A stretch of DNA of 64,000 bases from Bifidobacterium sp. 7101 (lineage in GTDB: Bacteria; Actinomycetota; Actinomycetes; Actinomycetales; Bifidobacteriaceae). Of the stretch, positions 3,485 through 39,500 are shown piece after piece. The stretch covers positions 124,001 to 188,000 of the forward strand of contig NZ_AWUN01000002.1 in the NCBI RefSeq assembly GCF_000499285.1, given 5' to 3'. The translations under genes and the position numbers were made by a program. The number at the start of each line of letters is the position of its first letter. Position 1 is the stretch's first letter. The notes under the pieces were generated by a model. The model was given only the letters and a program-made list of their open reading frames with translations, was not told the origin of the DNA and searched no databases.

Positions 3485-4362
3485 GCAGTCGCCGCCCGGT
3501 TCAGACGGTCCATCTCCTCCTCGCTCAGCTCCATATCGGCCGCCTGCAGGGAGTCCAGAATGGTGGCCGCCCTGTGAGCCCCGGGAACCACAAAGACGTT
3601 GCTGTTCTGGGACAGTTCCCAGGCCAGGACCACGCGCTGGTGGGAGACGCAGCGCTCCTGGGCCACCTGCCGGAAGGGGTCATAACGGGTTTCATCCTTG
3701 GGTGCTCGGAAACCTCCCAGAGGGCTCCAGCAGACGAATGCCAGCCCCAGCTCGGCCGCATGGTCCAACTCCTGGCGGGAGCTGGTGAAGGTGGGCGAGA
3801 ACTGGTTCTGCACGGCTACGAGGTCGTCGCCCAGAATCTGGCGAGCCAGGTCCATCCGCTCGATGTCTACGTTGGAGACGCCCAGGGTCCGGGCCACACC
3901 CTGTTTGACCAGCTCGGCCATGGCCTCCAGGGACTCCTGGTAGGGCACCTGCGGGTCAGGACGGTGCATATAGAGCAGATCGATGGTGTCCACACCCAGG
4001 GCCTGGGCAGACTCCTTGGCGTGCCGGATCAGGCTCTCCGGCCGACCGTCCACAGCCCAGGTGGGCCGCCCGTCGGTGAAGTTGCGGTAGTGTCCCACCT
4101 TGGTGGCCACCAGCACATCCTGACGGGGTCCCTGCCAGGAGTCCAAAGCCTGGCGGACCAGTCGCTCGTTGGTCTGTTCGGGACCGCCCGATTCGTAGTA
4201 TGACCAGGCGGTATCCAGATGCCGGCAGCCGGCATCCAGGGCCTGGTGGATGACGTCGATGGCCGTTGCCTGGTCCGGCTTGCCCTCGATGGACAATCCC
4301 ATGCAGCCCAGTCCGACCGCTGTCGTAGTAAAGGGCCCCAAGGCCCGCATCGACGATATCAT
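3481..4362 (-). CDS. aldo/keto reductase
   Basis: A 293-aa NADPH-dependent aldo-keto reductase with a TIM-barrel fold. The catalytic tetrad is readable in order: Asp and Tyr in HLDTAWSYYESGG, Lys in VATKVGHY and His in LLYMHRPDP. The NADP-binding end carries VVPGAHRAATI near the C-terminus. The length is a little under the usual 310-330 aa. The first codon may be the MISS or the internal MRALG methionine. The stop codon overlaps the start of the YfiH-family gene, forming a two-gene unit. The physiological carbonyl substrate cannot be told from sequence. Confidence 0.9.
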   Translation of the reverse strand: MISSMRALGPFTTTAVGLGCMGLSIEGKPDQATAIDVIHQALDAGCRHLDTAWSYYESGGPEQTNERLVRQALDSWQGPRQDVLVATKVGHYRNFTDGRPTWAVDGRPESLIRHAKESAQALGVDTIDLLYMHRPDPQVPYQESLEAMAELVKQGVARTLGVSNVDIERMDLARQILGDDLVAVQNQFSPTFTSSRQELDHAAELGLAFVCWSPLGGFRAPKDETRYDPFRQVAQERCVSHQRVVLAWELSQNSNVFVVPGAHRAATILDSLQAADMELSEEEMDRLNRAATA

Positions 4363-15015: not shown

Positions 15016-16972
15016 TTCCCAACCCACGCTCCCGTGAAGGGAGCGACGCCGCACCCTCCATATCAGCTCCATCCGAACACATTTCAATCCACGCTCCCGT
15101 GAAGGGAGCGACCCGGGGCCTGCCTGCGGTCGTTGGCCTGGTCGATATTTCAATCCACGCTCCCGTGAAGGGAGCGACAGACGGGCCGGATTGCACTGTC
15201 GTACAGCCAATGATTTCAATCCACGCTCCCGTGAAGGAAGCGACGTCTGTCAACTGAGATAAGGACGCAGATGCAGTGGGCATTTCAATCCACGCTCCCG
15301 TGAAGGGAGCGACACATCACGCCCGTTGGCAGCAACGGCTTGGATATATTTCAATCCACGCTCCCGTGAAGGGAGCGACTGCTATGCGATAGTCGCCTAC
15401 CGGCTGGCATCAGAATTTCAATCCACGCTCCCGTGAAGGGAGCGACGATCGCGTGAACGTCCTCGAAGCCGGTCCAGGTATTTCAATCCACGCTCCCGTG
15501 AAGGGAGCGACGGCCAGGCAAGTAGGGTGCCCGCAGGGAGATATATTTCAATCCACGCTCCCGTGAAGGGAGCGACCACAGTGGGCAAACTGGCAGACCA
15601 TGTATCAAAGATTTCAATCCACGCTCCCGTGAAGGGAGCGACTAGTCGATGCGCCGCTCCTGCGGGCTCCCCTTGTCATTTCAATCCACGCTCCCGTGAA
15701 GGGAGCGACCTACATAGAGCACCTCCTTTCAGGTGTGTATCTCATTTCAATCCACGCTCCCGTGAAGGGAGCGACCTGACCGGGACGTGTGACATGCCCA
15801 AGGTCACACCAATTTCAATCCACGCTCCCGTGAAGGGAGCGACCGGGTACACCAGGCCGAAACCCTTATCCCCGTAGAATTTCAATCCACGCTCCCGTGA
15901 AGGGAGCGACCGCGACGAGGTCGTCACAGTCCGTCTTCCTCATTGATTTCAATCCACGCTCCCGTGAAGGGAGCGACCGGCCTCGATGCAAGTGGCCGGC
16001 AGCCGCTCGGGATTTCAATCCACGCTCCCGTGAAGGGAGCGACGGCAGCTCCAGGCCCAGACTGCCGTCGAAGCAGATATTTCAATCCACGCTCCCGTGA
16101 AGGGAGCGACTTCTGCCTTCGACTTCCTGCGCGTCTTTGGGGCTATTTCAATCCACGCTCCCGTAAAGGGAGCGACGGGCATGACCACCTCGCCCAGGCT
16201 GTCGACGTTGCCATTTCAATCCACGCTCCCGTGAAGGGAGCGACCAGCGAAGCCCTGCTGGAAAAACTCCTGGTCAGATTTCAATCCACGCTCCCGTGAA
16301 GGGAGCGACCGTCATAACCCTGGTGCAGCCAGCCGCGCGTGGTATTTCAATCCACGCTCCCGTGAAGGGAGCGACTTGCGGGTCTGCTCCTGGTAATCGG
16401 CATCTTTGATATTTCAATCCACGCTCCCGTGAAGGGAGCGACTCATTCATGACACCAAGCGCCGACACTAACCCGATTTCAATCCACGCTCCCGTGAAGG
16501 GAGCGACCTGACCTGCCCTGAGGGCAGCTGGGCGCTGACGATATTTCAATCCACGCTCCCGTGAAGGGAGCGACACCTGGATGATAGGCCGGATCAGCAG
16601 TACTATGCGATTTCAATCCACGCTCCCGTGAAGGGAGCGACCGGAAATCAACGTCTCCAGGAACAAAAAGGGGCGATTTCAATCCACGCTCCCGTGAAGG
16701 GAGCGACCCTCGCAGGATGTTGCAGATTCGGTGCGCGTGCCTATTTCAATCCACGCTCCCGTGAAGGGAGCGACGTTATCTACCAGACGACACCAGACCA
16801 AAACCCGCCAATTTCAATCCACGCTCCCGTGAAGGGAGCGACCCCCCTTGGCCTTCCATTGGGCGAGCGTATCGGTATTTCAATCCACGCTCCCGTGAAG
16901 GGAGCGACCAAGAGGAGAAGCGCGATTTTACGGACGAGGAATTTCAATCCACGCTCCCGTGAAGGGAGCGAC
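15016..16972 (-). CRISPR. type I-C CRISPR array, 30 repeats and 29 spacers
   Basis: The repeat is 32 nt. Read in crRNA orientation (minus strand) it starts GTCGCTCCC, has the loop TTCAC, closes with GGGAGCG and ends TGGATTGAAAT, which is the classic I-C form with a 7-bp stem. I count 30 units with starts every 64-69 bases; spacers are 33-37 nt. The leader-proximal end is at 16972 next to cas2; the oldest end is at 15016. That end repeat is degenerate (TTCCCAAC where the others have TTTCAAT before CCACGC). Single-base variants occur at 15213-15244 (GGAAG for GGGAG) and 16145-16176 (GTAAA for GTGAA). All the rest appear identical. No spacer matched elsewhere in the window by eye. Confidence 0.98.
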
Positions 16973-17432: not shown

Positions 17433-17723
17433 CTATAGCATCATCACTTGATCAACAGGGATATGGCGCCTCACCCCGTAGTAATGGATCCTTCGGGAAT
17501 ACCTGGCACCCAGGTCGTACATAATCAAGCTGTCTTCCTGAGGATTGATCAACGTCATCAGCCGCTGTTTTAGGAGCTCACGGTCTGCAGGAGTAACCAC
17601 GCATTCAAACACACTATTTTGCACACGCTGCCCAAACTTCATGCACTCATGGCCGACCTGTCGCAACCGCTTCCGCCCAGCCGCCTCACAGGTGTCGACA
17701 TCATAGGCAACAACCACCATCAT
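17433..17723 (-). CDS. cas2: CRISPR-associated endonuclease Cas2
   Basis: A 96-aa Cas2 with the ferredoxin-like start MMVVVAYDVDT, containing the conserved Asp of the first strand. The central VQNSVFECVV and the YDLGARYSRRIHYYGV segment are typical of subtype I-C. It bridges two Cas1 dimers in the spacer-integration complex. It starts 12 bases after the cas1 stop, is the last gene of the cas operon and directly faces the leader. Length and motifs are intact. Confidence 0.96.
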   Translation of the reverse strand: MMVVVAYDVDTCEAAGRKRLRQVGHECMKFGQRVQNSVFECVVTPADRELLKQRLMTLINPQEDSLIMYDLGARYSRRIHYYGVRRHIPVDQVMML

Positions 17724-17735
17724 GATTCTTCCACC

Positions 17736-18767
17736 CTACTTCCAGAACATTGGAGGATAGGCATCCATATCCCCACGTATGTATCTAGCCAGCAATAATG
17801 CCTGCACATAGGGCACCAACCCCCATGGCACTTTCTCCTTAAGAAAGGGGTGCATGATTTGCTCATTTTTGCGCTTCTGCCAGGCTGAAAGCACCTGCTT
17901 CCTCCCCTTGTCGTTAAGGTAAGTTCCTCCGTTCTCTCGAATCTCGAAATCTCCGGCCTTAACCATATGGGTGTTGACCAGGGACAAAGCCAGCCGATCC
18001 GCAAAGACAGGGCGCAATTCCTCAACAAGGTCCAGAGCCAGCGAAGATCTGCCTGGCCTGTCTGTATGTAAGAAACCGACATAAGGATCAAGGCCGACAC
18101 CTTGAAGTGCAGAACGACAATCTCCTGAAAGTAGCACGTAGATAAATGAGAGCAGGGCATTCATCCTATCCATCGGTGGCCTCCGGCTGCGCTGCTCGAA
18201 GTAGAAATCATCCTTATTTGTGAGGATGAGATCATCAAAGGCATAAAAGTAGCACTTCGCGGCCTCCCCCTCCACACCACGAACCGAATCCGCTGTTAGG
18301 CAACCGTCCAATTCCTGCAAGGCTGCCAACAGACGGGCACTCTGCTTTTTGACACGAGGCACATTGATCCGTAAAGCATGGTCTCTGGTAGCACGCTCCA
18401 ACACCTGTCGGGCATTGAATATCTTGCCCATGACGAACGAAGCTGCAATCGAACAGACCTCATTATCATCATCGGCCATGTGATACTGACGGCGTCGCAA
18501 AAGCACATTTCTGTTAGCTTCTCCAAGCATAGACCCGTAGTACTTGCCCTGAGGAGAATAGAAGGCAAATGAGACTCCAAATTCATTGCACTTACCCAGC
18601 AAGGCCGGCGAGGCACCCTTGTAACTGAAGCAAAGAATAGACTCCAAGGCACGTAGAGGAATCCGCCCCATGACGTGGTCCCCCTCATTCACCACGACGT
18701 TCTCCTGCTCCAGGGAAAGGTAGGCATCCTCTGTAGTGACAAACAAGGTGTTCAACATCTGTCTCAA
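17736..18767 (-). CDS. cas1: CRISPR-associated integrase Cas1 (I-C)
   Basis: A 343-aa Cas1, the spacer integrase. The I-C N-terminus LNTLFVTTEDAYLSLEQENV is clear. The all-helical C-terminal half carries MDRMNALLSFIYVLLSGDC and GFLHTDRPGRSSLALDLVEE, which contain the metal-binding His and acidic residues. A TTG start at 18767 gives the MRQMLNTL N-terminus; ATG 18758 is the alternative three codons later. It lies between cas4 (59-base gap) and cas2 (12-base gap). No frameshift is seen, so adaptation looks intact. Confidence 0.96.
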   Translation of the reverse strand: MRQMLNTLFVTTEDAYLSLEQENVVVNEGDHVMGRIPLRALESILCFSYKGASPALLGKCNEFGVSFAFYSPQGKYYGSMLGEANRNVLLRRRQYHMADDDNEVCSIAASFVMGKIFNARQVLERATRDHALRINVPRVKKQSARLLAALQELDGCLTADSVRGVEGEAAKCYFYAFDDLILTNKDDFYFEQRSRRPPMDRMNALLSFIYVLLSGDCRSALQGVGLDPYVGFLHTDRPGRSSLALDLVEELRPVFADRLALSLVNTHMVKAGDFEIRENGGTYLNDKGRKQVLSAWQKRKNEQIMHPFLKEKVPWGLVPYVQALLLARYIRGDMDAYPPMFWK

Positions 18768-18826: not shown

Positions 18827-19546
18827 CTACAATTCTTTCAAGGTCTTTCGAATGTAGTCAGCAGCGGAAGACTTATGCACAAGTTCGGGCAGGCAGATAT
18901 CCTTCAATGAGCATGACCGGCATCCTGTCTTTGGCTTCACCTTTGGAGTACGGCCTCGCCGATAAAGGTCCCGCATCTGCGCCAGATCATCGACTACCTG
19001 AGCGCGAAGATCATCGTTGAGTTCGACCACTTCACGGCGCTTGGTCCGCTGGTAGAACAAGGCCCCCTGGCTGATGCTGCAGGAGAGCATTTCTTCCAGA
19101 CACATGGCTTCGCCGCACAATTGCAAACGGTCAGCATTATTGACTTTGCTGGAACCATGCTTGTACTCAATAGGATAGGGTGTCCACCGTCCTCTTCTGC
19201 CTGTCAATGCAACTCCATCCTGAGCTGCATGAAATTCAACGATGTCACAATCGCCGACCACTCCCAGCCTTCGGGAGAATACACGCAGGTCGCGCAGTAT
19301 CAAGGTGTCGCCACGTTTTTCTGAAGCATGGTAGTCGTGAGCACGCCGATGTTCGAAGTCTCCTGCATATGTTCTGGTGTTGTCATGCCATTGCTCCTCT
19401 ATGTGGATCAATGCCCATTGGCGCTTGCAGAATTCGAAATGCTGAATGCCAGACAGGGCCAGCCATTCATCCTCAGGATATTCGGCCGGCCCTGTGGCCA
19501 TGGACAAGTCCATGGAATTATCACTCATTGCAGCAGACTCAGCCAT
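18827..19546 (-). CDS. cas4: CRISPR-associated Cas4 exonuclease
   Basis: A 239-aa RecB-family nuclease that trims prespacers and selects the PAM. The iron-sulfur cysteines are visible: one in HFEFCKRQWALIHIEEQW and three near the end in TGCRSCSLKDICLPEL. Nuclease motifs include GDCDIVEFH (Asp) and PIEYKHGSSK (Glu, Lys), followed by LQLCGEAMCLEEM. A 20-residue N-terminal extension precedes the conserved core, so an internal start is possible. The start overlaps the cas7c stop by eight bases. Confidence 0.95.
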   Translation of the reverse strand: MAESAAMSDNSMDLSMATGPAEYPEDEWLALSGIQHFEFCKRQWALIHIEEQWHDNTRTYAGDFEHRRAHDYHASEKRGDTLILRDLRVFSRRLGVVGDCDIVEFHAAQDGVALTGRRGRWTPYPIEYKHGSSKVNNADRLQLCGEAMCLEEMLSCSISQGALFYQRTKRREVVELNDDLRAQVVDDLAQMRDLYRRGRTPKVKPKTGCRSCSLKDICLPELVHKSSAADYIRKTLKEL

Positions 19547-20471
19547 CCACCATTTCAGTCAGTTCGACCGACTGCGGAATAGCTGAAGTATCGACCGTCA
19601 CATCGTAATCCGAGAAGCTGCGCGGGGTCTCAACCTCAGGCTTATGAGCCACATGAATGCTATCGAACAGCTTGTAGGAGGGAGCATCGCCAAGATCGTT
19701 GCTGTGCTTGAAGACGTAGAGTTTGCGAACGGCCATCTTGCCCCTAGCTGCAGAATGATCGAACTCGAACATGTTGAGAATGGCCTGCCAAAGCATAGCC
19801 AGGTCCTCCTCGCTAAATCCGGTGGTCTTTTGTGCAAGCTTGGCATTCACATAGCCATCAGCGCGGTATAGACCGTAAGGAACAATGGACTTGTTGCCCA
19901 TCTCGTTATTCTTGTTCTCTTGGTCTTTTTCCGTAGTAATGGCCACTCTGGTTATGGTGACAGACTGCGGGAAAATCGGATCGATGGACCTCGAGAATCC
20001 AAGTTGCACAGGGCCGCGCACCTGGCCACAGGCCAACCCGCCCTTGACGAAGGTGGTCATCACCGCGCCAAAGGTCCTGATATCGAAGAAATTGGAGCAC
20101 ATGTAATCGAGGATTAATCTATCCAGCTCGCCGTTTTCCTTCTTGGCCTTCTTTAAAGCCTTCCCGATACTGTCCACATCGGGATCCCCATTGACGCCAA
20201 CCGCTTTCAGCGCCTCAGCATCAAGACGGTTCAGCGGAACCTGCTGCTTGATATAGATACGCCAGGGCGCCTTATCCCCATTAATCAGCTGCACATAGTT
20301 ACGTATCTTCCTCTTCAGGCAAACATCGGTAACAATTCCAATTCCGGTCTCACTATCGGTTCGTGGCATATTGCCTGATTCCGGATCTCCGTTGGGATTG
20401 CCATTCTCAACATCGTAAAGAATGGAGAAATCGTACCTATTTTGGATAGCCTTGGCTGTTTGCTCACTCAT
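19539..20471 (-). CDS. cas7c: Cascade backbone protein Cas7c (Csd2)
   Basis: A 310-aa Cas7 of subtype I-C that polymerises along the crRNA guide. The family start RYDFSILYDVENGNPNGDPE and NMPRTDSETGIGIVTDVCLK are clear. Later motifs include FFDIRTFGAVMTTF, GQVRGPVQLGFSRSIDPIFP and FDHSAARGKMAVRKLYVFKH. ATG 20471 has GGAG six bases upstream; a TTG two codons earlier is also open. Start and stop overlap cas8c and cas4, so the Cascade subunits are translationally coupled. It appears intact. Confidence 0.97.
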   Translation of the reverse strand: MSEQTAKAIQNRYDFSILYDVENGNPNGDPESGNMPRTDSETGIGIVTDVCLKRKIRNYVQLINGDKAPWRIYIKQQVPLNRLDAEALKAVGVNGDPDVDSIGKALKKAKKENGELDRLILDYMCSNFFDIRTFGAVMTTFVKGGLACGQVRGPVQLGFSRSIDPIFPQSVTITRVAITTEKDQENKNNEMGNKSIVPYGLYRADGYVNAKLAQKTTGFSEEDLAMLWQAILNMFEFDHSAARGKMAVRKLYVFKHSNDLGDAPSYKLFDSIHVAHKPEVETPRSFSDYDVTVDTSAIPQSVELTEMVDG

Positions 20472-22257
20472 TTGCAACTCCTTCTTCCTTGTTGGTTTCC
20501 TTATTGTCGTCCTTGTTTTTGCCCTTGTAGCGCTCCTGAGTCTCGAAATAGTATCCGAGCTGGAAAGCCCCTTGTTCAGGCAGCGATAACCTCGTTGGGA
20601 AGTTCTCGCCGATTCTGGTCATCAGATCTGCGATACGCTTGGTATAGTAAATCTGCGTTCCAGTTGATAGTTTTCGTAGGTGCTTTTTCGCCAAATCACC
20701 CAAGTGCGGGAAAACCACGGCTGGCATGGTCGATGCGTTAGTAAAGAAGCGGTCACCAATCGTGGTATTGATACCGGGATTCGCAGCATGTTGTATGTCC
20801 TCATATAGGGCGAACAGTCGTCCTAGGACATAGGGCACATTAGTGCTTTCTTTGTTGATGGACACTTGCAATACCTCCTTAGGGCATTGGTTGTTTGGGT
20901 GACGAAGAAAATACGCTTTGATGATTGCAGCCTTGGCGCGGGGCACGTCATGCTCAACGCCTATGCGGTTCTCAACAGCAGTCAGGAGCGACGTAGGATA
21001 GGGCGCACCTGTAAGAATGGCCTTAAAAAGGTCGGAAACTGTATGGGGGGAAGCTGGGATCCTCTTTTTCCCACCATTGGCGGGCGGTACAGTTTGCGCA
21101 AGCAGCATCCACACAGGTAGGTCACGACGCTTGTCAAATTTCGGGCGTTCGATATCCAGATCTTCATAATGCCGACGTACATGCTCCATGTAACTGCCAT
21201 AGGTGTCCTTCAAGAAGAAGGACACCGAAAGTCTGGCGGCGTTGGGGGCAAGTCCAAGGATGTAGAAATGCTCATCCGGATTAAGCCTGACACCATTGAA
21301 ATCAACTGGGTTTCCTTTAGACAAGGCCGTGACAGTGGCTATCAGATCCTGTTGATCAACCCCTACGGCGCCTTCAATACACATGTTCATCTCGGCTGAG
21401 TACTCAGCCTGTCCTGATTCTGCCCAGGAGACAATCGTCAAGGAACCATCATTGATAGTTCTTGTGTACTGATCGTCCTTCAACACAGTATTTAAGGCTG
21501 TGGTGTAAGCGAAAGCTTCACGCTTGCTCATAGGAGCATTTTGGTCCTGCTTTTTGTTGTAGGAAAGATACGCTGGAGCATTGAAAGACACCAGTGCGGA
21601 TCCGCTGGATTGTGCGTTGCGGACGCCTCTGATATTTGGATGAGTAAGAGCGGGAACGACGGCTTGGCCTGAAACAACACTTTGCATGGTTTCAGAACCA
21701 GCGGCCGGATCATCACCGTCCTCGTCACCCGAAGAGAACCATGAATCCCAGTATCTTTGCATGGTTGGGTTTTCAGATAAAGGTAAGCCGCTGCGGCAGA
21801 GGACGAAATTACCGGTCAAGGCCTTCTTCCAGTCCCCTTCGCCTAATTTCTCCTCGACAACTGCCGCTTGAGGCGTCCGGGAAAAGAAAGCGAGCACTGC
21901 ACGGGCTTCAGCATCTTCGGCATTTGCAAGCACTTGCCGATGCAATTTAGCAGCAGCTGCAAAGCGCTTGGCCGCCTTGTCTGTTGCACCGTTGGCATCT
22001 GCACCTAGCAGGTAAGAGGAGTTGTCGCAGAGGAAATTGGCCTGAATTTTCACCGTTCGTAATGCATGTGCCGGAACAGGCATCATACGTCTGAACTGCT
22101 TGTTCTTTGTCAATGTCCCAAACGGAATGACATGGGTTATGGCCCCGTCATCCGCTATGTCCAGTCCCCACGGAACATTTTCAACGCTGTATCCATACCG
22201 CGGTGCCTGACCAGCCTCCACCAGCCGGTCGTAAAGTCTGACTAGTTCGCCAATCAT
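20464..22257 (-). CDS. cas8c: Cascade large subunit Cas8c (Csd1)
   Basis: A 597-aa Cas8c/Csd1, the subunit that recognises the PAM. In I-C it also yields the small Cas11c subunit from an internal start within the C-terminal part of this gene. The N-terminus (LVRLYDRLVEAGQAPRYGYS) and motifs such as AYLSYNKKQDQNAPMSKREAF, written here in part, and FFLKDTYGSYMEHVRRHYED fit the family. The C-terminal region ends with a Lys/Glu/Asn-rich tail (KGKNKDDNKETNKEEG). ATG 22257 overlaps the cas5c stop by four bases. I did not identify the internal Cas11c start with certainty. Confidence 0.95.
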   Translation of the reverse strand: MIGELVRLYDRLVEAGQAPRYGYSVENVPWGLDIADDGAITHVIPFGTLTKNKQFRRMMPVPAHALRTVKIQANFLCDNSSYLLGADANGATDKAAKRFAAAAKLHRQVLANAEDAEARAVLAFFSRTPQAAVVEEKLGEGDWKKALTGNFVLCRSGLPLSENPTMQRYWDSWFSSGDEDGDDPAAGSETMQSVVSGQAVVPALTHPNIRGVRNAQSSGSALVSFNAPAYLSYNKKQDQNAPMSKREAFAYTTALNTVLKDDQYTRTINDGSLTIVSWAESGQAEYSAEMNMCIEGAVGVDQQDLIATVTALSKGNPVDFNGVRLNPDEHFYILGLAPNAARLSVSFFLKDTYGSYMEHVRRHYEDLDIERPKFDKRRDLPVWMLLAQTVPPANGGKKRIPASPHTVSDLFKAILTGAPYPTSLLTAVENRIGVEHDVPRAKAAIIKAYFLRHPNNQCPKEVLQVSINKESTNVPYVLGRLFALYEDIQHAANPGINTTIGDRFFTNASTMPAVVFPHLGDLAKKHLRKLSTGTQIYYTKRIADLMTRIGENFPTRLSLPEQGAFQLGYYFETQERYKGKNKDDNKETNKEEGVANE

Positions 22258-22910
22258 GAGCTCACCCTCGGATCAGTTGCATCCAGCACGCCGTTAATCA
22301 ATTCAGCTCTGAAAAACATAGGTTGCGGGTCCGCAGGGTCTCGATAGTCCATGTCGTATAACATGTACCCCAGATCCCGATGACCATTTTCGAATCCCTT
22401 GGGCTGACCCTTATCGACATCCCAAAGCCGAAAATCGACAGGGAACTCCCGTGTTCCGAAATAAGGGTGGTGATAGTACTGCCCGTTCTGAGCTCGTCTA
22501 TTGAACATGCTGATGAACTTAGCCGGCGTATCCCCTGCAGCAGCTTTGCTATTCATTTCAAAGTGTGCCTCAATCACATAGTGAACATCCCGCAGAATGG
22601 TGGAGGCACGCTGCTGAATGTCTGAGGAAGCATAGATCGCGCTGTCTTTGGACGGATCATTGATCATCGACCGGATAGTATCGGCCGATATCACGCTGCT
22701 GACCTCATTGCGACGAACACTGGTGAATCTGATGGGATTCATAACCACGATCCTGTCAATCCGCCAGACCATGCCCGGATGCCAGAACACCGCCTCCAAA
22801 ATTCCCCGTGCCGCCGACGGCGTCATCACGTCGTACGAGACCCTCTCTACTTTCATTTCCGGTCTGGTGAAGAGGGCGTACGGACCCCAGACCTCAAGTT
22901 GTACTGTCAT
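22254..22910 (-). CDS. cas5c: Cascade subunit and crRNA-processing nuclease Cas5c (Cas5d)
   Basis: A 218-aa Cas5 of subtype I-C. In this subtype Cas5 replaces Cas6: it cuts the repeat hairpin and stays on the 5' handle (about 11 nt). The family start VQLEVWGPYALFTRPEMKVE and the SYDVMTPSAARGILEAVFWH motif with its conserved Tyr are clear, as is RDLGYMLYDMDYRDPADPQP near the end. It lies 45 bases after cas3 and overlaps cas8c by four bases. As the only processing enzyme here, it would also have to recognise the shorter stem of the crRNA-like gene at 25602-25690. Confidence 0.96.
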   Translation of the reverse strand: MTVQLEVWGPYALFTRPEMKVERVSYDVMTPSAARGILEAVFWHPGMVWRIDRIVVMNPIRFTSVRRNEVSSVISADTIRSMINDPSKDSAIYASSDIQQRASTILRDVHYVIEAHFEMNSKAAAGDTPAKFISMFNRRAQNGQYYHHPYFGTREFPVDFRLWDVDKGQPKGFENGHRDLGYMLYDMDYRDPADPQPMFFRAELINGVLDATDPRVSS

Positions 22911-22955: not shown

Positions 22956-25100
22956 TCAATACAGCAGACCGTTTTGAGGCAACTGATCTTCATCGACCTG
23001 CAGACCTGTAGCACTGTCGTACATGCCCATGTCCAGCAGAACAAATGCATCGTCATCCGACCTGGCACCGTGCTCAGCCAAAGCGGATATCTTCCCAGCC
23101 TCTTTGAGTCTGTCCAGCTGTCTAGGCCAGACATTGACCGCGTACCGGCCCAATCTGCGGAACAGCCCTCGCGTATAGCAACGAGGATCAGTCAGCTGGG
23201 CACACAGGGCGCTCGCTTCTTCATTGACCGGTATATAGACGGGAACAGTTGGCGTATCAATCAGCTTGAAAAGCTCAGCAATCTGAGCGAACGGCATACG
23301 GCATCCTGATATTCCACGCTCATGAGCCTTAAGAATCTGACGCTGATCGAGACTCTCGTCCCCTCGCATTCCAAAGAGCCTGGTGAAATATTCATGAATC
23401 GCTTTTGAAGATGCCAGGTCAGCATTGCCTTCCCGTACCAACTCGAAAGCCAGCATATTCTGTTTCAAAAACGAAACCTGGCCCTCATCAGTCGAAAAAA
23501 CATGAACCAACGAGGCATCCGCTTCACGTCGACCTTCTCTATTGCAACGGCCTGCTGTCTGAAGAATCGAATCAAGACCGGTCTGTTCCCTATATGCCTC
23601 AGGAAAATCGACATCCACTCCTGCCTCTATCAGAGACGTGGATACGACCCTGCAAGATTCTCCCTGGGCGAGGCGATCCCGTATCTGCTTCAGCAACCGT
23701 TCCCTGTCATAGGCACATTGCAGTGTAGTCAGGCAGAAAGTGCCGTCTTCAAAGCCATGCTTTCGCACCATTCCGGAGATGTACTGCGCCTCCTTACGTG
23801 TGTTGACCACGCACAGAACCTGATTATGGCCTTCTACTGCTTCAGCCATCTCATCCATGTTCTTATGACCGTCATCGACGATTCGGTTGCGCCTGAATTC
23901 CGAGCGCTCCTTTTCACTCAATGGTGCAATTTCAGGGATGGTCAGATTTGGGCATTGAAGAGCCTGAGCAAACAATTCCTGCAAGGCCGGCTGTGTTGCT
24001 GTGCACAGCACCGCGGTGACGTGATAGTTGGCAACCAGTTCAGCTATGGCCTGTACACATGGTTTCAGCTGAGGCAAGGGCAAGGTCTGGGCCTCATCGA
24101 AGATCACAACAGAGTTAGCTATGTTATGAATCTTCCTGAGTTTAGAGGCCTTGTTGGCGAACAGGCTTTCGAAAAACTGCACAGCAGTGGTTACGATAAC
24201 CGGCATATTCCAGTTTTCGGCCGCAAAACTGCGATGCAAATCGTTTGCTGTAAGCTCGTCTTCCTCTTTTAATTGAAAAGCAGCATCTGCATAGTGTGGT
24301 AGAACCGCATCTGGCCCAAGGAGGGTTTCGAATTCCTTTACCGTCTGGTCGATGATTGACGTGTAGGGCACGACGTAAATAACCCTATCCATATGATGCG
24401 TTTTGGCGTGTTCTAGCGCGAACGTAAGCGAGGAATCAGTCTTGCCGCCGCCTGTGGGAGCGGTCAGCGTGTATAGACCTGGTTTCCATTCAGGATCGGC
24501 TCCGTGAGTAAGGCAGTCACGCAATATGGCATTGCGTTTTTCATTCAATGACGTACTTGCCTTTGCCGACAGGAAGGACTCAGCCCTGCGCTCCATGATT
24601 TCAGCAAGCGCCTTGATTCTGATCGACTGATGGTCACGCAGCTGCCCAGCCAGCGCTTTGCTTATTTCGCGTAATTCCTGTGGAGGCGGCATAATAGAAC
24701 TGGACAGACGATCAGGACCGAGATCCTGAAGCAGCTGCTCGAGAAATGGCGATTCATCGCGCTCTACTTTGCCATTGACAAAGAACTCAGCATCCAGCCG
24801 ATCCGCATCCACTAGCGCTGATTCGTGCATACGGATACGCATCATGTCCGAGAAATGTGAGCCCAAAGAAGCAAGCGGCTTGACTTCGGGAAGAGTGATC
24901 TCATCCTTCCAATGCGATGCATCAGGGTTGGGACGCTTCATTCTGCCGACCAAGGTGCTTGAATTCTCGGTATCAATACGATTGCCAAAATCCGGCAACC
25001 CAGCATGATGCCCTGCAATGGCAAATGTGGCTTCTTGAAGATGGAGCTTATAGGCTACTTTCATCCCGTATGAAGAGTGATTGACACTACTGCTCATCAT
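22956..25100 (-). CDS. cas3: Cas3 helicase part, with the C-terminal half of the HD domain
   Basis: This 714-aa frame carries the second half of the HD nuclease (NHSSYGMKVAYK, AIAGHHAGLPDFG) and the full superfamily 2 helicase. Walker A is in LTAPTGGGKTDSS and motif II is VIFDEAQTLP. Motif VI is recognisable in QTAGRCNREGR. The metal-binding HD pair itself (LLHDIGKYS) lies in the preceding frame. The two frames join naturally if one T is skipped at the TAG stop near 25087, giving ...DEQ-SVNHSSYG. The second frame also has its own ATGATG with GGGAGG upstream at 25100, so coupled re-initiation is possible. Otherwise Cas3 is inactivated by a one-base insertion. Confidence 0.92.
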   Translation of the reverse strand: MMSSSVNHSSYGMKVAYKLHLQEATFAIAGHHAGLPDFGNRIDTENSSTLVGRMKRPNPDASHWKDEITLPEVKPLASLGSHFSDMMRIRMHESALVDADRLDAEFFVNGKVERDESPFLEQLLQDLGPDRLSSSIMPPPQELREISKALAGQLRDHQSIRIKALAEIMERRAESFLSAKASTSLNEKRNAILRDCLTHGADPEWKPGLYTLTAPTGGGKTDSSLTFALEHAKTHHMDRVIYVVPYTSIIDQTVKEFETLLGPDAVLPHYADAAFQLKEEDELTANDLHRSFAAENWNMPVIVTTAVQFFESLFANKASKLRKIHNIANSVVIFDEAQTLPLPQLKPCVQAIAELVANYHVTAVLCTATQPALQELFAQALQCPNLTIPEIAPLSEKERSEFRRNRIVDDGHKNMDEMAEAVEGHNQVLCVVNTRKEAQYISGMVRKHGFEDGTFCLTTLQCAYDRERLLKQIRDRLAQGESCRVVSTSLIEAGVDVDFPEAYREQTGLDSILQTAGRCNREGRREADASLVHVFSTDEGQVSFLKQNMLAFELVREGNADLASSKAIHEYFTRLFGMRGDESLDQRQILKAHERGISGCRMPFAQIAELFKLIDTPTVPVYIPVNEEASALCAQLTDPRCYTRGLFRRLGRYAVNVWPRQLDRLKEAGKISALAEHGARSDDDAFVLLDMGMYDSATGLQVDEDQLPQNGLLY

Positions 25101-25335
25101 AGGCCTCCCTGATCATCCTCTGGAATTCCTCCGAATACTTGCCTATGTCGTGAAGAAGGCCTGTATCCAGACCCATATCAGCCTGATCTTGGTCATACAG
25201 ATAACCAGCCAGCCTGCCGGCGAAGGCTGCATCAAGACATCCAGTCATCACCAGATGCTGCACGCAGACCTCGAAACCATGATCTTTCGAAGTGCGGGCC
25301 AGATACTCGTCTATCTCATCGCCTTCGGTCGTCAT
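25087..25335 (-). CDS. cas3: Cas3 HD-domain N-terminal fragment
   Basis: This 82-aa frame is the start of Cas3 (DEYLARTSKDHGFEVCVQHL, then GLLHDIGKYSEEFQRM), with the HD motif of the nuclease. It ends at TAG 25087, 14 bases inside the next frame, where the rest of the HD domain begins. Full-length I-C Cas3 has these parts in one chain of about 800 aa; the summed length here is about 795. The ATG at 25335 overlaps the stop of a 41-codon upstream ORF as ATGA. Whether the split is a mutation, a sequence error or a real two-protein arrangement cannot be told from this window. Confidence 0.85.
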   Translation of the reverse strand: MTTEGDEIDEYLARTSKDHGFEVCVQHLVMTGCLDAAFAGRLAGYLYDQDQADMGLDTGLLHDIGKYSEEFQRMIREAYDEQ

Positions 25336-25457
25336 GCGATCATCTCTTCCTGACTTCGGTCACTGTTGAGCGGTTGCGTTGTATTGACCTGAATCCAAGG
25401 CGTCAATCGCCATACACAGACCGGCTTCCCGCATATAAACACAGAATCATCAACCAT
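25332..25457 (-). CDS. 41-aa leader ORF coupled to cas3
   Basis: An ORF of 41 codons begins at ATG 25457 with AAGGAG placed eight bases upstream, the best ribosome site of the operon. It starts MVDDSVFICGKPVCVWRLTP and ends QEEMIA, with its TGA overlapping the cas3 ATG as ATGA. It is the first ORF after the predicted cas promoter (about 40 nt of leader). I recognise no family. It may be a small regulatory protein or simply a translation-coupling leader. Two Cys and the lack of a membrane segment are the only features seen. Confidence 0.5.
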   Translation of the reverse strand: MVDDSVFICGKPVCVWRLTPWIQVNTTQPLNSDRSQEEMIA

Positions 25458-25504
25458 CGCCCCATCTCCTTCGTATAGGCGATTAACTCATGTACTAAAG
25501 TAAA

Positions 25505-25531
25505 AATATATCTATACTTCCAGAAAGTCAA
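25505..25531 (-). promoter_or_regulatory. cas operon promoter
   Basis: On the minus strand TTGACT (25531-25526) is followed by TATTTT at 17-bp spacing (25508-25503) or TATATT at 15 bp (25510-25505), in AT-rich DNA. Transcription would start near 25497, about 40 nt before the 41-codon ORF. Confidence 0.65.
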
Positions 25532-25532
25532 C

Positions 25533-25551
25533 TTCGGTTAAGTTGTAATTA
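25533..25551 (+). promoter_or_regulatory. predicted Cascade target site at the cas promoter
   Basis: The plus strand carries the I-C PAM TTC (25533-25535) followed by GGTTAAGTTGTAATTA. The guide of the crRNA-like gene at 25602-25690 reads GGTTATGTTGTTATTT. The first 15 positions match except 6 and 12. The PAM lies one base from the -35 box, so a bound Cascade would cover the promoter edge. The match ends after position 15, too short for efficient interference, as expected for repression without cleavage. Confidence 0.75.
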
Positions 25552-25601
25552 AGAAAATTACGAAGTTTTATTAATCAAAAGCGAGAAAAAGGCCCTCGCT
25601 C

Positions 25602-25642
25602 AAAAAAACAAGAGGCTCATCGAACATAGCCGATGAGCCCTC
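25602..25642 (-). terminator. terminator of the crRNA-like gene
   Basis: The minus-strand stem GAGGGCTCATCG / CGATGAGCCTC (one bulged base, 8-nt loop, 25612-25642) is followed by TTGTTTTTTT. It ends the crRNA-like transcript and isolates the cas promoter from upstream reading. The hairpin may stand in for the 3' repeat stem of a normal crRNA. Confidence 0.85.
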
Positions 25643-25690
25643 TATACAGAAATAACAACATAACCGTTTCAACCCACGCCTCACGGCGAC
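25602..25690 (-). ncRNA. creR: CreR-like crRNA-type regulatory RNA gene
   Basis: Read on the minus strand, the gene starts with a degenerate repeat (25690-25666). It begins GTCGC, keeps a 4-bp stem CGCC-GTGA-GGCG instead of the array's 7-bp stem, and ends TGGGTTGAAAC, close to the array's TGGATTGAAAT handle. A guide of 23 nt follows (25665-25643, starting GGTTATGTTGTTATTT), then a terminator hairpin and TTTTTTT. Array spacers are 33-37 nt, so this is a dedicated mini-crRNA. It points the same way as the cas operon and lies about 70 bases upstream of the cas promoter. The guide targets that promoter (see 25533-25551). Such RNAs (CreR) are known to repress cas genes through Cascade; the assignment here is inference from architecture and match. 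No clear promoter for it was found. Confidence 0.75.
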
Positions 25691-25915
25691 TATCCCTCCA
25701 TACATATCAATGCCTGCAAACACCATAAATGATGGAAAATGGAACACAAACCGACTGCAAACATGAGCATGCGACTAGGTCCGCCCCGTTTGAACCGATC
25801 TGTATCACATTACGGATACGCTCTACTCTACTCTCCACAGCACAAGCACTTGATATGTTCATTGACCTTATCCGCTATCTACAAAGTACGGCGATGGATC
25901 TACATAGGAGACTCT

Positions 25916-31373: not shown

Positions 31374-31447
31374 TGGAGCGGGCGACGGGAATCGAACCCG
31401 CGTAATCAGTTTGGAAGACTGAGGCTCTACCATTGAGCTACGCCCGC
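31374..31447 (-). tRNA. tRNA-Gly (anticodon TCC), CCA encoded
   Basis: The minus strand gives a full cloverleaf. The acceptor arms are GCGGGCG and CGCCCGC. The D-arm contains AGCTCAATGGTAGAGC, the anticodon stem TCAGT/ACTGA encloses CTTCCAA (anticodon TCC), and the T-arm contains GGTTCGATTCC. The 3' CCA is encoded. tRNA genes are common integration sites, but no matching attachment repeat was found nearby. Confidence 0.96.
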
Positions 31448-33366: not shown

Positions 33367-33398
33367 ATTTCAATCCACGCTCCCGTGAAGAGAGCAAT
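33367..33398 (-). repeat. orphan CRISPR repeat, 16 kb from the array
   Basis: This 32-base unit matches the array repeat at 29 positions. In crRNA orientation it keeps the loop TTCAC, the 3' arm GGGAGCG and the intact TGGATTGAAAT handle. The three changes are in the first half, and two of them turn G-C stem pairs into G-U pairs, so the 7-bp RNA stem still forms. It stands alone; no second repeat lies at one spacer distance on either side, and no terminator follows. Confidence 0.85.
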
Positions 33399-33550: not shown

Positions 33551-36500
33551 TCAGCTCCGGTCGTAGTAGCCGTCGGCACCCAGTCGGGCCTGGGGATCCA
33601 GCAGCATGGCCTTCTCGATCTCATGGCCCACATACCCGTGGCCGTCCTCATGGAAGCGGCGGTTGTCGATGGGCTCATAGAGCGGGGCCCGACCCATGCG
33701 GCCCTCCTCCAAACGGCGCTGGCCAGCGGCCAGACGGTCGTTGGCCCGGCGACGCCACTCGTCCAGGGCCTCCTGGCCGGAGGTCTTGAGCACGGCTGCT
33801 TCGAAGGCTCCGGGGTTGACAATGACCCCGATGCCGGAGACATGGCCGAAGCCCAGGGAGGTGACCAGCCCGGCCTTGACCTTACCCACCTTCAGGGGCT
33901 GTTCCAGCCAGACCAGATGGTCGTCGCGTCTCAGGACCGGATCCACGCAGTCCAGGGAGGCATTGACCGGGATGATCCCGGACCGGAAGAGCTGGGTGAG
34001 CCCGTTGATCTGGAAGATGCAGGCACCGCCCTTGGCATGGCCGGTCAGGCTCTTCTGGGAGATGACGTAGAGCGGGTTGCCGTCCGTCCGCCCGATGGCG
34101 TGGGCCAGGGTGTTATGCAGCTCGGACTCGTTTGGGTCGTTGGCGTTGGTGGAGGTGTCATGCTTGGAGACCACGGCGATGTCGTCGGGGTCCACGCCCA
34201 GCTTGGCCAGCGAGCGCACCAGGTCCGAGTCCTTGCCGCCCATGCCGGCAGCCAGAGCCCCCAGTCCGGGTGCAGGGATGGAGGTGTGGGCACCGTCCGC
34301 GAAGGAGTGGATGTACCCTACCACACCAGCCACAGGCAGACCCATGCGCAGGGCGATGTCGCCACGGGTCAGCAGGATGGTTCCGCCGCCCTGGGACTCC
34401 AGGAAGCCGCCGCGCCGACGGTCGTTGGCCCGGGAGAAGAACCGAGGCTGGATGCCCTTGGAGTACATCTCGGCGGAATCGGCGGTGGCGTTCATGTTGC
34501 CGAAGCCGATGACAGACTCCACGCCGATGTCGTCGATGGCGCCCGTGACCACGAAGTCAGCCTTGCCCAGGGCGATCTTGTCGGCGCCCTCCTCAAGGGA
34601 GACCGCGGCCGTGGCGCAGGCCGAGACCGGCTGGACCATGTTGCCGTAGCCGCCGATGTAGGACTGCATGACGTGCGCGGCCACCACGTTGGGCAGAGCC
34701 TCCTGAAGGATGTCCGTGGGGATCTCCTTACCCAGGAAGCGGTCCAGGTAGAGCTTGCGCATGGAGGCCATGCCACCGAAGCCGGTCCCCTGGGTGGAGG
34801 CAACCTTGGAGGGATGCACGGCCTGCAGGATCTCCACAGGGGTGAATCCGGCCGACAGGTAGGCGTCCACGGTGGTCACGATGTTCCAGAGGGCGATCGG
34901 ATCCACGTCCCCGACCATGGAGGCGGGAATGCCCCACTTGACCGGGTCGAAGCCCTTGGGGAACTGGCCGCCCACGGTCCTGGACATGGTGGCCCGGCGC
35001 GGCACGCGGATGCGGGAGCCAGGCAGGCGGGTGACGGTCCACTCGCCGGACTGCTCATCGCGGGCGACGCTGGTGTGGTCCGGATCCTGGGCCACGTACT
35101 CCTGAGCCATGTCCCTGGTGGGCACCGAGAAGGCCACGTCGTGATCCAGGAAGACGTCCACCTCCTCCTCGTTGGTGCCCTGGCGGTAGTCGGAGCCCAT
35201 GCCGTCGTCGAAGGGACGGATGCCGGAGCGGGCCACCACCTGGTCGTGGTAGCGCTCGGCGATGTCCTGCTCGGGGACCAGCTCGCCGTCGGTGTCGTAC
35301 CAGCCCGGCTTGGGGCTGTCCTGCCACTCGACCAGACCCATGTTCCAGGCCAGTTCGAGGACGGCGGCGGCGCTCAGGTCGACCTGGCCATCCGAGTGGA
35401 TGCCCATCTCGGCCTCGAAGCGGGTGCGGCCGGAACCCCAGGGACCCATCTCGCCGATGGAGACGATGACGATCTGATCCTCGGGCCGAGCGGTCACGCC
35501 CTGCCAATCCTGCAGATCCACCGGGGCCTGGGCGGGCACCCGGGGTGTGGGCAGGGCCTTGATGACCCGGTCCGGATCCTTGCCGGCATCTGCGGGCGCA
35601 TCACCGGACTTTCCGGCTGGGGCCGGTGTCGACGGATCGTCATCCTGGGCAGCCTCGGCCTTCAGGGCCTTGAGGTCCAGAGGGCTGGAACCCAGCCCAC
35701 CGGTCAGGTCGGCCTTAAGCGGGGCCTGGAGAGCCTGCTGACGAGCCTGAACAGTGCAGAGATCCAGCAGGGAATCAGCCATCTGCTCGGTGGAGTAGGT
35801 GTGGACGCCGTGGCGCTCCACCACCTTGACCAGCGGATCGTTGCCGCCCATGAGCCCGGTGCCACGCACCCAGCCGATCAGCGGATGGGCGAAGGTGACC
35901 CGGCCGGACCAGTCCTGCTCGGGGCGGGACCGGTTGACGATGGCGTCCAGGGCGGCCTTGACCTCCCCGTAGGCTCCGTCGCCGCCGAACATGCCGCGGT
36001 TGGGCGAACCGGGCAGGACCACATGCAGACGGTGGTCGACGTCCGTGTCCGCCCCGATGCCGGCGAACCCGACGATCTGGCGTTCCAGGCTCCAGAGCAT
36101 GAGCCGGGCTTGGGACTCGAAGAGCCGGCCCGAGTCGGCCATGGTCCCGTGCATGGCGGGGGCTGCGAAGGGCAACAGCAGGGTGGGCTCGTAGGCGGGC
36201 TTGAGCACGGTGGTCGTGGCCCCCGTGGTCTTGCGCTGCTCATTGCCGACCCAGTCGACCAGGGCATCCACATCCCGGTAGCTGGACAGATTGGCGGACA
36301 CGATCCAGAGACGGGCACCGCCCACGGCATGGCGACGGTAGAGGTCGCGGGCCCAGATGACGGTCTGCGGCTTCAGGGAATGGCAGACGGCGATGACCGT
36401 CGCCCCACCCTCCAGGAGGCCCGCAGTCAGCGATCCCGCGATGGACTTGGGGGCCACGCCGGTGACCACGGCTACGTCCTTGGCGAATCGTGCTGCGGTC

Positions 36501-39500
36501 TGGTCCGAGTCGGCAGGGGTCATGGCCTGGTCGGCGATGCCGCTGAAGACCCGTGCCAGATCCTGCTCGCCGCGTTTGCCTGCCTGGTCGGCGTACCAGA
36601 CGGCCTGATCGTGCACCTCGCGTCCGGCTCCTACGAAGCTCAGGCGGCTGCGGTCGTCATCATGCTCGTGGTAGATGTGAGCCAGATCCTCGCGGGCGCT
36701 GGCCCAGCGATCGTCGAAGAGGACGGCGCGCGAGGCCTCGAAGCGTGGCGCCACCTGCTCGGGCCAGTCGCTGCCCAGCTCGGCATCAACGGCGGCCACA
36801 ACGGCGGCATCCTCATTCTCGCCAGGCTGGACAACCGGAGGCTTAAGCCCCAACTTGTCCAGGAGGAAGCGTGCGGTAGAGGCCAGCACACCCTCAGAGC
36901 CGGTCACCTGGGCTGCGAAGGCATCCAGGGCGGCGGAGTCAACCACGGCACCGCCAGCAGCACCGCCTGCAGAAGGCATGGAGACCGTGACGCCGTGACG
37001 CTGGGCCACCTGCTGAACAGCCTGGTCGATCAGCGCATTGGCCGCAGGCACGGTGGAGACGGCTTCGGTGGGCAGGAGCGCCAGGTCGCCGCCACGCGAG
37101 GAAGCACCCTCACGGGTGTCCAGGACCAGGCTGGCCACGGTGGCCGAGACCCAGCCTGCACCCAGCTGCCAGACGTCGGAGACCCGTTGCTCGACCTGCT
37201 GCAGCTTGAGGCCGGAGGGGCCGAAGAGGTCACGGATGCGCTCACGCACGATGTCGGAGAGCACCGGACCGAAGGGCCGATAGTTGGGGGCCACCTTGTT
37301 CACCAGGGCACTCAGGTCGGTCATGCTGGCCTCGGCGGCACCGTCCACGCTGGCCACACCCAGCTCGGAGCTGATGTCCATCAGCAGCTGGTTGCGCCTG
37401 GAGGAGACACCGTTGGTCAGGGTGTCGGTGGTGTCGGTCTGCCCAATCTGTTCGGGGCGGATCTTGGTGGAGTAAGCCAGCAGGACGGCGATGGCATCCG
37501 AGGCCTTGAAGGGCAGGTCGGCCACATCGGCACCCGATGGACCGCCGGTCACCGCGGCCGGAACGGGAACCGAATCCTCGGCTGCTGCAGGGGCAGAGGC
37601 AGGGGCTGGAGTTGGCTCCGATGCCGGTGCAGGTGCAGCAGCAGGAGAAGGTTCAGGGCTGGAATCCTGGACCGGAGCTGCGGGCTCCTCCTCCACTGGG
37701 GCCATGGGATCGGTGTCGGTCAGATAGACCCGGCTCTCGTCCCTGCCCAGGTTGTAGACGCTCACGTGACGCTCGCGGAAGTCGGGCAGCTTCAGGGTCT
37801 TGGTGCCCAGGTTGGCCAGGGTGGGCGAATGGCCCAGCCCTACCTCGATCAGCTGCTCCACGCCCAGTCCGCCCTGCTCGGGGGCATCGAACATGATCGC
37901 CTGGGTCTCGATCCAGCGCACCGGGGAGGCGAACTGCCAAGAGAGCAGCTCGGTCAGCAGCAGACGGCCCAGCCTCTGGTCGTCGGCCGCATACCGGTCC
38001 CAGACCTTGGGATCGTCCAGAGCCTTCTTGATGCGTTCGGAAGGAACCACCTCCAGGATGGAGGCCGCGAACTCCTTGGTCATCTGGAAGGGCCGTGCAA
38101 CCAGGTTGGGTATGTAGCGACCCTCCAGGCGGGAGTAGTCGATATGCTCGGGCAACAGGGCATCCAGGGTGTCACGGAACTCGGGCACACCCTTGCGCAG
38201 CAGGGTGGAGTGGAAGGGCACGTCGATGCCGGGCACGTACATGAAGGCCGGCTTGCCGCCCGCCTCCTTGGCCCGACGGTTGGCGTCGGCACGCAGATAC
38301 TCCAGGCCTGCGATGGTTCCGGCTATGGCGTACTGCTGGCCGGCCAGGTTGTAGTTGACGATCTCCAGGAATTCGCCGCACTCCTTGGATACGGACTCCA
38401 CATACTGCTTGACACCGGAGTCCCCCACGCCGAACTGGTTGGGACGCAGGGCGCCCATCCGGTAGTTGCTGCGCCCCTGCTCGTCGCGTTCGATCAGGGA
38501 GTGCATGGTGGATCCGCGGTGGAAGACCAGCTCCAGGACCGTCTCCAGGGACATGACCCCGGCGAAGGAGCTCAGAGCATTGTACTCGCCCAGGGAGTGG
38601 CCGGCGAAGTAGGCGGGCCAGATGTCCATGCCGGACTCACGCAGGCGGGCGGTCTGGGCGAAGGCCACGGTGGCCAGGGCCACCTGGGTGAACTGGGTCA
38701 GGTTGAGCAGACCCTCCGGATGATGGTAGGTGACTCCCTTGGCCGTCAGGGTGTGCGGGTTATCACGCACCACGGCTAGGATGGAGAACCCAAGCTTGCT
38801 GCGGGTCAGGGCATCGGCCCGTTCCCAGGTCTCGCGGGCGGCGGGCGACTTGGCCCGCTCGTCCAGAACCATGCCCTGCTGCTGGATTCCCTGGCCGGGA
38901 TAGACATAGGCGGTCCGTGGGGCGCGCGCAATCGCCGTGCCGCGGGAGACCAGCTGGCCGTCGATCCTGCAGGTGACCTCCAGGACCAAGCCGTCATGGC
39001 GCACCTTGCCCACACGCTCCAGGCTGATCTCCACCTTGTCGCCCAGCTGGACCATGCCGTACATGTTGTAGGTCCATCCGGCGATCTCATAGTGGACGCC
39101 CTGCTCGTCGGTGGCCTGGGCCGCGTACTGGGCGGTGGCCGACAGCCACATGCCGTGCACCAGCGGCGCAGACAGGCCGGAGACCGCAGCGCCTCGCTTG
39201 GAGGTGTGGATTGGGTTGAAGTCCCCGGAAGTGCGCGCAAAGGCGGTCATATCCGTGGGGGCGGTGACGGTGACGCGGCGCAGCAGCCTGCGGGGTGTGT
39301 CCACCGTGTCGGCGTGGATGCCGCCGTACTCGGGAGCCTCCTGGGGCAGCTGGTCGCTGTATGCGCGGCCACGGATGGCGAAGCGCTCGACCTCGCGGGC
39401 CAGCACGGTTCCGTCCTGGGCGGCGTGGACCACATGGATGGTCACCACCCGACCGGAGGCGGACTCCTGGTAAGGCTCGGCCCAGCTGGTCAGTCCGATC

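Follow-up and report, generated by a model that had tools for sequence, protein, structure and literature searches.

The closest described counterparts of the element discussed here are the CreR RNAs, which resemble the guide RNAs (crRNAs) of clustered regularly interspaced short palindromic repeats (CRISPR) systems. According to the available text of the papers concerned, CreR has been described for types I-B, I-E and V-A (PMC13131331) and is said to be widespread in type I (PMC12737573), and its effect is released by crRNA competition or by anti-CRISPRs (PMC12737573, PMC13131331). The DNA analysed here (the window) is a stretch of 64,000 nucleotides (nt) from Bifidobacterium sp. 7101, a relative of honeybee-gut bifidobacteria (contig NZ_AWUN01000002.1, positions 124,001 to 188,000), and its minus strand carries, upstream of a type I-C cas operon, a small RNA gene made of one degenerate repeat, a guide and a terminator. 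This gene very probably encodes a cas-regulating crRNA-like RNA of the CreR type that represses its own cas promoter. A literature search of partial coverage returned no account of CreR in either type I-C or Bifidobacterium, which is not to say that none has been published.

The anatomy of this gene was re-read directly, and it is confirmed that the degenerate repeat with the crRNA handle, the guide and the terminator form a stand-alone RNA gene on the cas strand, as an earlier note on this DNA had maintained. The solitary repeat, or psi-repeat, reads AGTCGCCGTGAGGCGTGGGTTGAAAC on the minus strand (25691-25666), the array repeat being GTCGCTCCCTTCACGGGAGCGTGGATTGAAAT, and folds of both sequences give a stem of 4 base pairs (bp) in the psi-repeat against 7 bp in the array repeat. 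Approximately 565 bases separate it from the main cas3 frame, upstream of which it lies, and its 3' end is the crRNA handle, so the locus has the solitary degenerate repeat with a handle close to the cas genes that characterizes CreR. The guide follows directly and reads GGTTATGTTGTTATTTCTGTATAGA (25665-25641); it stands where the earlier note had placed it, although its length is 25 nt and not the 23 nt given there. The terminator scan found two terminator-like sites compared with a shuffled mean of 0.3, the fold of the 90-nt RNA has z = -2.9, and the terminator hairpin may take the place of the 3' repeat hairpin found in type I-C crRNAs. An Rfam search of the region returned a single match, below threshold and irrelevant.

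The first bases of the guide are found again at the cas promoter, where the plus strand reads TTC + GGTTAAGTTGTAATTA (25533-25551) and guide bases 1-15 agree except at 6 and 12. The count of 13 agreeing bases out of 15, the TTC before the target, which is the protospacer-adjacent motif (PAM), and the -35 box TTGACT one base further on had all been proposed before and were found again at these places. In the genome of 2,117,084 bases, the pattern GGTTANGTTGTNATT, with positions 6 and 12 free and up to two mismatches allowed, occurs at 16 sites (12 for a control pattern), of which two are exact, the guide and the target, and the other 14 carry two mismatches. The view that such a match is unlikely by chance is thus upheld, given that the whole genome holds no other site with fewer than two mismatches, and the guide has the partial complementarity to its own cas-operon promoter, beside the right PAM, that is expected of CreR.

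Six close genomes were compared, namely that of the window, L002 (B. apousia), L003 (B. choladohabitans), L004 and L005 (B. asteroides ESL0200 and ESL0199) and L031 (G002); they are six of the seven genomes with Cas5c, the window included, among 27 searched in the window's genus, and the seventh, G015 (L044), yielded no pair. The element lies upstream of cas3 in all six, with guides that differ. The psi-repeat is shortened in L003, L004, L005 and L031 and has a 32-nt form in L002, and T-run hairpins, judged by eye, stand immediately 3' of the guides. The -35 box is kept at the same place (TTGACA in L002, L003, L005 and L031, TTGACT in L004), 0-2 bases from the PAM in all six genomes, and L002 and L005 have TTGACA-17 nt-TATATT where the window has its promoter, whose two boxes are also 17 nt apart. 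As a separate observation, L002 has a second repeat fragment without handle approximately 670 bases upstream of its cas3 match, upstream of the psi-repeat, which is possibly the trace of a former two-repeat mini-array.

Each of the six guides fits its own promoter at 12-13 of the 13 read positions (in L003 with one missing target base). When guides and targets are permuted, only one pairing out of 720, the true one, reaches 75/78; the next best scores 73, because the pairs of the window and L004 resemble each other. Where a read position differs from the window in both guide and target, the match is restored in 5/5 cases in L002, 7/7 in L003, 1/1 in L004, 5/6 in L005 and 7/8 in L031, and two-sided changes at the unread positions restored no match (L004 and L005 at 6, L003 at 12); position 15 of L004 changed on the target side only. 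Whether the match persists in relatives was a test put forward in the earlier note, and it does persist in the six genomes despite the differing sequences, imperfectly in L003 and L004. This evolutionary retention of guide-target pairing is a further trait of CreR.

The comparison was extended to genomes in which Cas5c (TIGR01876) was detected: 30 of 189 in Bifidobacteriaceae, 5 of 396 in the order, 24 of 396 in the phylum, and 16 of 138 and 21 of 140 in two further families, these sets overlapping. G969 and G1172 (below cut-off) and G1124 and G1125 (too little upstream DNA) were left out, G044, found via Cas3 only, was added, and 81 loci were reduced to 74 by dropping those without a located cas3 or 900 upstream bases (L057, L072, L074, L086, L094, L106 and L107). 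Psi-repeats were called blind to targets, which gave 75 calls across 46 loci; an upstream TTC site matching at least 11 of 13 positions is present in the own locus for 20 of these 75 calls, compared with 5 of 5475 cross-locus comparisons, and the sole cross-locus score of 12 belongs to the L004 guide, for which the similar target of the window is an equally good fit. Altogether, a guide-target pair is found in 24 of the 74 type I-C loci of the phylum, a count to which L004 and L080 (PAM TTT), L065 (missed by the blind rule, presumably owing to a weak stem) and, with bases missing from the target, L003 and L060 were added. L071, with 12/13, is counted among the 20 and was omitted from the 24 loci and from the register described below, its guide and target being on the same strand and its repeat of another type; pairs from the first pass that involved poor handles, palindromes or arrays (e.g., L034, L060's array and L077) were set aside as chance. 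In loci beyond the close group, the target reaches into the presumed core promoter or the beginning of the first gene, as judged by eye, and in a second I-C lineage of Bifidobacteriaceae the RNA gene is oriented away from cas.

Another way of looking at these pairs is to consider which of their bases agree. Of the 21 pairs considered, 20-21 agree at positions 1-5, 3 at position 6, 18-21 at positions 7-11, 6 at position 12 and 20-21 at positions 13-14; agreement then declines to 14 at position 15, 11 at 16 and 9 at 17, and positions 18-24 match in 36 of 147 cases. Positions 6, 12 and 16-24 played no part in the selection of the pairs. The claim that 6 and 12 are the positions not read in Cascade-type complexes agrees with their being mostly mismatched over the 21 pairs, and the fading of the pairing near 15-17 gives the complementarity of limited length that is typical of CreR. 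A register of this kind is to be expected where Cas7 flips every sixth base, and it argues for Cascade over plain antisense pairing.

The assignment of TTC as the I-C PAM, also made in the earlier note, is backed independently by phage protospacers. The available stretches of the window and of L002-L005 supplied 268 spacers, of which 13 match the phages BlindUri1 and/or BlindBasel1 of bee-gut Bifidobacterium with at most 4 mismatches, two of them sharing one site, and TTC precedes the protospacer in at least one phage for 12 of the 13, the exception being a window spacer with CTC. Of five further spacers with 5-7 mismatches, two have TTC and one each has TGT, TCC or TTT. An abstract dealing with type I-C in Xanthomonas oryzae names TTC in its opening as well (PMC8406640). 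With regard to the window array itself, 3 of the 28 spacers examined match BlindUri1 and/or BlindBasel1, with one mismatch each; the array spacer searches gave no plasmid match for the window and no phage match for L002.

From the anatomy, the unique target, the PAM, the register and the co-variation, a course from transcription to release can be proposed. The minus-strand RNA would start near the psi-repeat and end at the terminator, around 25602. Cas5c is the repeat-processing nuclease of type I-C, a subtype not known to have Cas6; a cut by this enzyme within the psi-repeat would leave an 11-nt handle, and the RNA would be loaded into the I-C Cascade. The guide would then bind the 15-nt site, with its PAM TTC, beside the cas -35 box, and the complex would block RNA polymerase. 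Cas3 would not be expected to cut, because pairing stops near base 15-17, compared with array spacers of mostly 34-35 nt. Repression would ease if array crRNAs displaced the small RNA in the competition for Cas proteins, or if Cascade were disabled by an anti-CRISPR.

Several observations weigh against this proposal. No promoter for the small RNA was recognised by the promoter scan, and for the cas promoter of the window the scan gave one hit compared with a shuffled mean of 1.2, which by itself is chance level, so that the promoter call rests on the relatives. The PAM is TTT in L004 and in L080, and the L003 target is short of one base. In L090 the best TTC site is directly before the RNA gene itself and not at cas3, towards which there is only a weaker gapped site. 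Pairs were found in only 13 of the 30 Cas5c genomes of Bifidobacteriaceae (G154, one of the 30, is outside the tested loci), and L032-L039, eight loci of the window-like Cas3 lineage, yielded no convincing pair.

The alternative that survives best, improbable as it appears, keeps the dependence on Cascade and supposes that the pair mainly holds down a small gene behind the promoter (in the window, a frame of 41 amino acids, aa), as CreA does for CreT or CreP, the cas genes being carried along. Five of the six close genomes have a small frame with a ribosome-binding-site-like sequence between target and cas3, similar in L004 and L005 (41 aa) and in L002 (35 aa), and alike in length and unrelated in sequence in L003. 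In L059, L080, L084 and L090, an open reading frame (ORF) of 28-55 aa occupies this place, in L090 with respect to the second-best site of the locus. However, the 41-aa frame overlaps the following cas3 HD ORF by ATGA and no separate cas promoter is seen, so the cas genes would be repressed with it; it has no Pfam match; and in L031, for which no small frame is listed between target and cas3, as in L092, L095 and L096, the target stands directly before the cas3 frame, with no plausible extra gene. The ORFs in the more distant loci (L080, 29 aa; L084, 28 aa; L090, 32 aa; L059, 55 aa) are possibly CRISPR-repressed small genes in their own right; the L080 and L084 peptides are alike and the L059 ORF has a helix-turn-helix match.

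Far less probable is a plain antisense or trans-acting RNA that works independently of Cascade by pairing with cas mRNA or DNA. The complementarity and the terminator of the RNA favour such a model, but the six close genomes all have the target on the upstream side of the -35 box, and hence outside the cas mRNA, and the model gives no role to the unread sixth positions, the PAM or the repeat handle. A very small probability is likewise assigned to a phage-derived, Racr-like decoy that inhibits Cascade by mimicking the repeat, without guiding it. The available text of PMC10651486 indicates that solitary phage repeats can inhibit type I-C, including RacrIC1 from Bifidobacterium pseudocatenulatum; here, however, the element stands at a host cas promoter in six genomes and its co-varying guide would be superfluous for a decoy, and neither the phage or plasmid carriage nor the guide-free action of Racr is seen. 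That the element is the remnant of a decayed array, or a spacer matching by chance, can practically be dismissed, in spite of the degenerate psi-repeat, the further repeat fragment of L002 and a solitary repeat without detectable target at 33367-33398, given that guide and target stay matched while both change, that the own-locus frequency of 20/75 stands against 5/5475 across loci, and that T-run hairpins, seen by eye, come right after the guides of the close genomes.

If the RNA is indeed of the CreR type, the sites that lack bases are the part likely to surprise specialists most. The absent base of the L003 target can be placed at position 6, and in L060 a tandem pair of sites, spaced 25 bases apart at roughly -320 to -290 from the cas3 match, comprises one without base 12 (13/14 otherwise) and one without bases 6 and 12 (14/14). 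Three sites in two loci are therefore short of bases, and each absent base can be placed at 6 or 12. When gaps were allowed anywhere, the psi-repeats without an ungapped TTC site gave only one other match, L039 with 11/14, which is chance level; gapped cross controls reached up to 12/14 in 1898 comparisons and, with two gaps anywhere, up to 13/14 in 335. The absent bases may represent tolerance or, in L003, early decay. When the window is compared with L005, Cas3 DNA is 97.8% identical over its first 2.1 kb, and guide and target are 54% identical each at the read positions, compared with 85% for the psi-repeat, 78% for the terminator and 79% for the promoter stretch. Faster turnover of the pair than of its flanks is only suggestive, because the non-coding flanks also diverge (78-85%). 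It is conceivable, without being likely, that the I-C Cascade reads the site in five-base blocks with such strictness that the DNA can even dispense with the base separating them, and that the pair turns over as a locked unit, perhaps since phage-borne decoy guides punish a fixed site. A search of IMG/VR for such decoys with 17-base patterns returned three stretches for the window guide and five for the L002 guide, about the estimated chance number.

The operon on the minus strand behind the targeted promoter is a succession of type I-C genes (NCBIfam): split Cas3, Cas5c, Cas8c/Csd1, Csd2, Cas4, Cas1c and Cas2, followed by the array. Its coordinates are collected in Table 1, together with those of the RNA gene and its target.

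Table 1. Features of the RNA gene, its target and the type I-C cas operon in the window.
Feature	Position	Strand	Basis or remark
Psi-repeat, solitary degenerate I-C repeat, 26 nt	25666..25691	minus	direct reading and fold; handle TGGGTTGAAAC kept
Guide, 25 nt	25641..25665	minus	positions 1-15 equal the cas promoter site except 6 and 12; remainder unmatched
Intrinsic terminator of the small RNA (predicted)	25602..25640	minus	11 pairs, 6 of them G-C, loop of 6, then T run
Target (protospacer-like site) at the cas promoter	25536..25550	plus	13/15 match, mismatches at 6 and 12
PAM TTC of the target	25533..25535	plus	direct reading; phage protospacers
-35 box TTGACT of the cas promoter	25526..25531	minus	promoter scan; one base from PAM
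-10 box TATTTT of the cas promoter	25503..25508	minus	promoter scan; TATATT in L002 and L005
41-aa open frame with ribosome-binding-site-like sequence	25332..25457	minus	first frame behind the targeted promoter
Cas3 HD domain, N-terminal part, separate 82-aa ORF	25087..25335	minus	TIGR01596, 3.8e-07, below curated cut-off
Cas3 remainder, 714 aa, other frame	22956..25100	minus	14-nt overlap with HD ORF
cas5c	22254..22910	minus	TIGR01876, 2.2e-50
cas8c/csd1	20464..22257	minus	TIGR01863
cas7/csd2	19539..20477	minus	TIGR02589
cas4	18827..19546	minus	TIGR00372
cas1c	17736..18767	minus	TIGR03640
cas2	17433..17723	minus	TIGR01573
CRISPR array, 30 repeats of 32 nt, spacers mostly 34-35 nt	15016..16972	minus	

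The division of Cas3 within its HD domain into overlapping frames of 82 and 714 aa looks fixed rather than a sequencing error, because the same split is present in all six close genomes (window, L002-L005 and L031) and GGGAGG precedes ATGATG at this point. Either two polypeptides complete one nuclease domain or a ribosomal frameshift joins the frames. In L032-L039 an open cas3 frame extends 240-495 nt farther upstream.

Other features of the window deserve a brief mention. The second solitary CRISPR repeat (33367-33398, minus strand), approximately 8 kb upstream of cas3, has three differences from the array repeat and is kept with its flank in L005 at 1679-1710. No TTC site above 9/13 was found for it in the window and no site better than two mismatches in the genome, where it gave 11 hits compared with 11 for the control. 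A frame of 3119 aa is open at 33551-42910 (minus strand), with a frame of 1718 aa on the opposite strand within its span. A tRNA-Gly (TCC) gene is located at 31374-31447 (minus strand) and, in L003, at 3877-3950; over 75 bases, the L003 copy shows full identity to a gut phage record, and its identity to many mycobacteriophage records is approximately 89%.

The proposed regulation would extend RNA-guided self-control of CRISPR to type I-C, in which Cas5c instead of Cas6 makes the guides, and the guide-target pairs of 24 loci are directly testable. The six-base register in which Cascade reads its target becomes visible in these pairs as an evolutionary signal, and the pairs would amount to a natural repression code, tolerant of mismatches, with which CRISPR expression could be dialled in gut bacteria. 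If cas expression is regulated in this way, anti-CRISPRs would, in turn, act differently on these hosts.

Among the known forms of CRISPR self-regulation is that of Cas9, reportedly described by Workman et al. in 2021, in which a natural single-guide RNA turns the effector on its own promoter; it differs from the window RNA in that it belongs to type II, is tracrRNA-derived and is built from unrelated parts. Shmakov et al. are said to have predicted, in 2023, CRISPR-derived regulatory elements with stand-alone repeats and guides partly complementary to cas promoters. The Racr RNAs, as far as the available text describes them, share with the window RNA a solitary repeat-like form, including an I-C example from Bifidobacterium, but they are phage-borne inhibitors with no guides to a host promoter (PMC10651486). 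CreA of the CreTA and CrePA systems is, in the text available, likewise a crRNA-like RNA that steers Cascade to a promoter by partial complementarity (PMC12737573, PMC12948488); the target of the window RNA differs in being the promoter before the cas genes, with putative small frames intervening in several genomes. CreR is the closest, being in the available accounts a crRNA-like RNA with limited complementarity to its own cas promoter (PMC13131331, PMC12737573), whose effector binds without cutting, as is proposed for the window RNA. What sets the latter apart, as known from its sequence, is the subtype I-C, in which Cas5c would need to process a repeat with a 4-bp stem, and the single repeat followed by a terminator.
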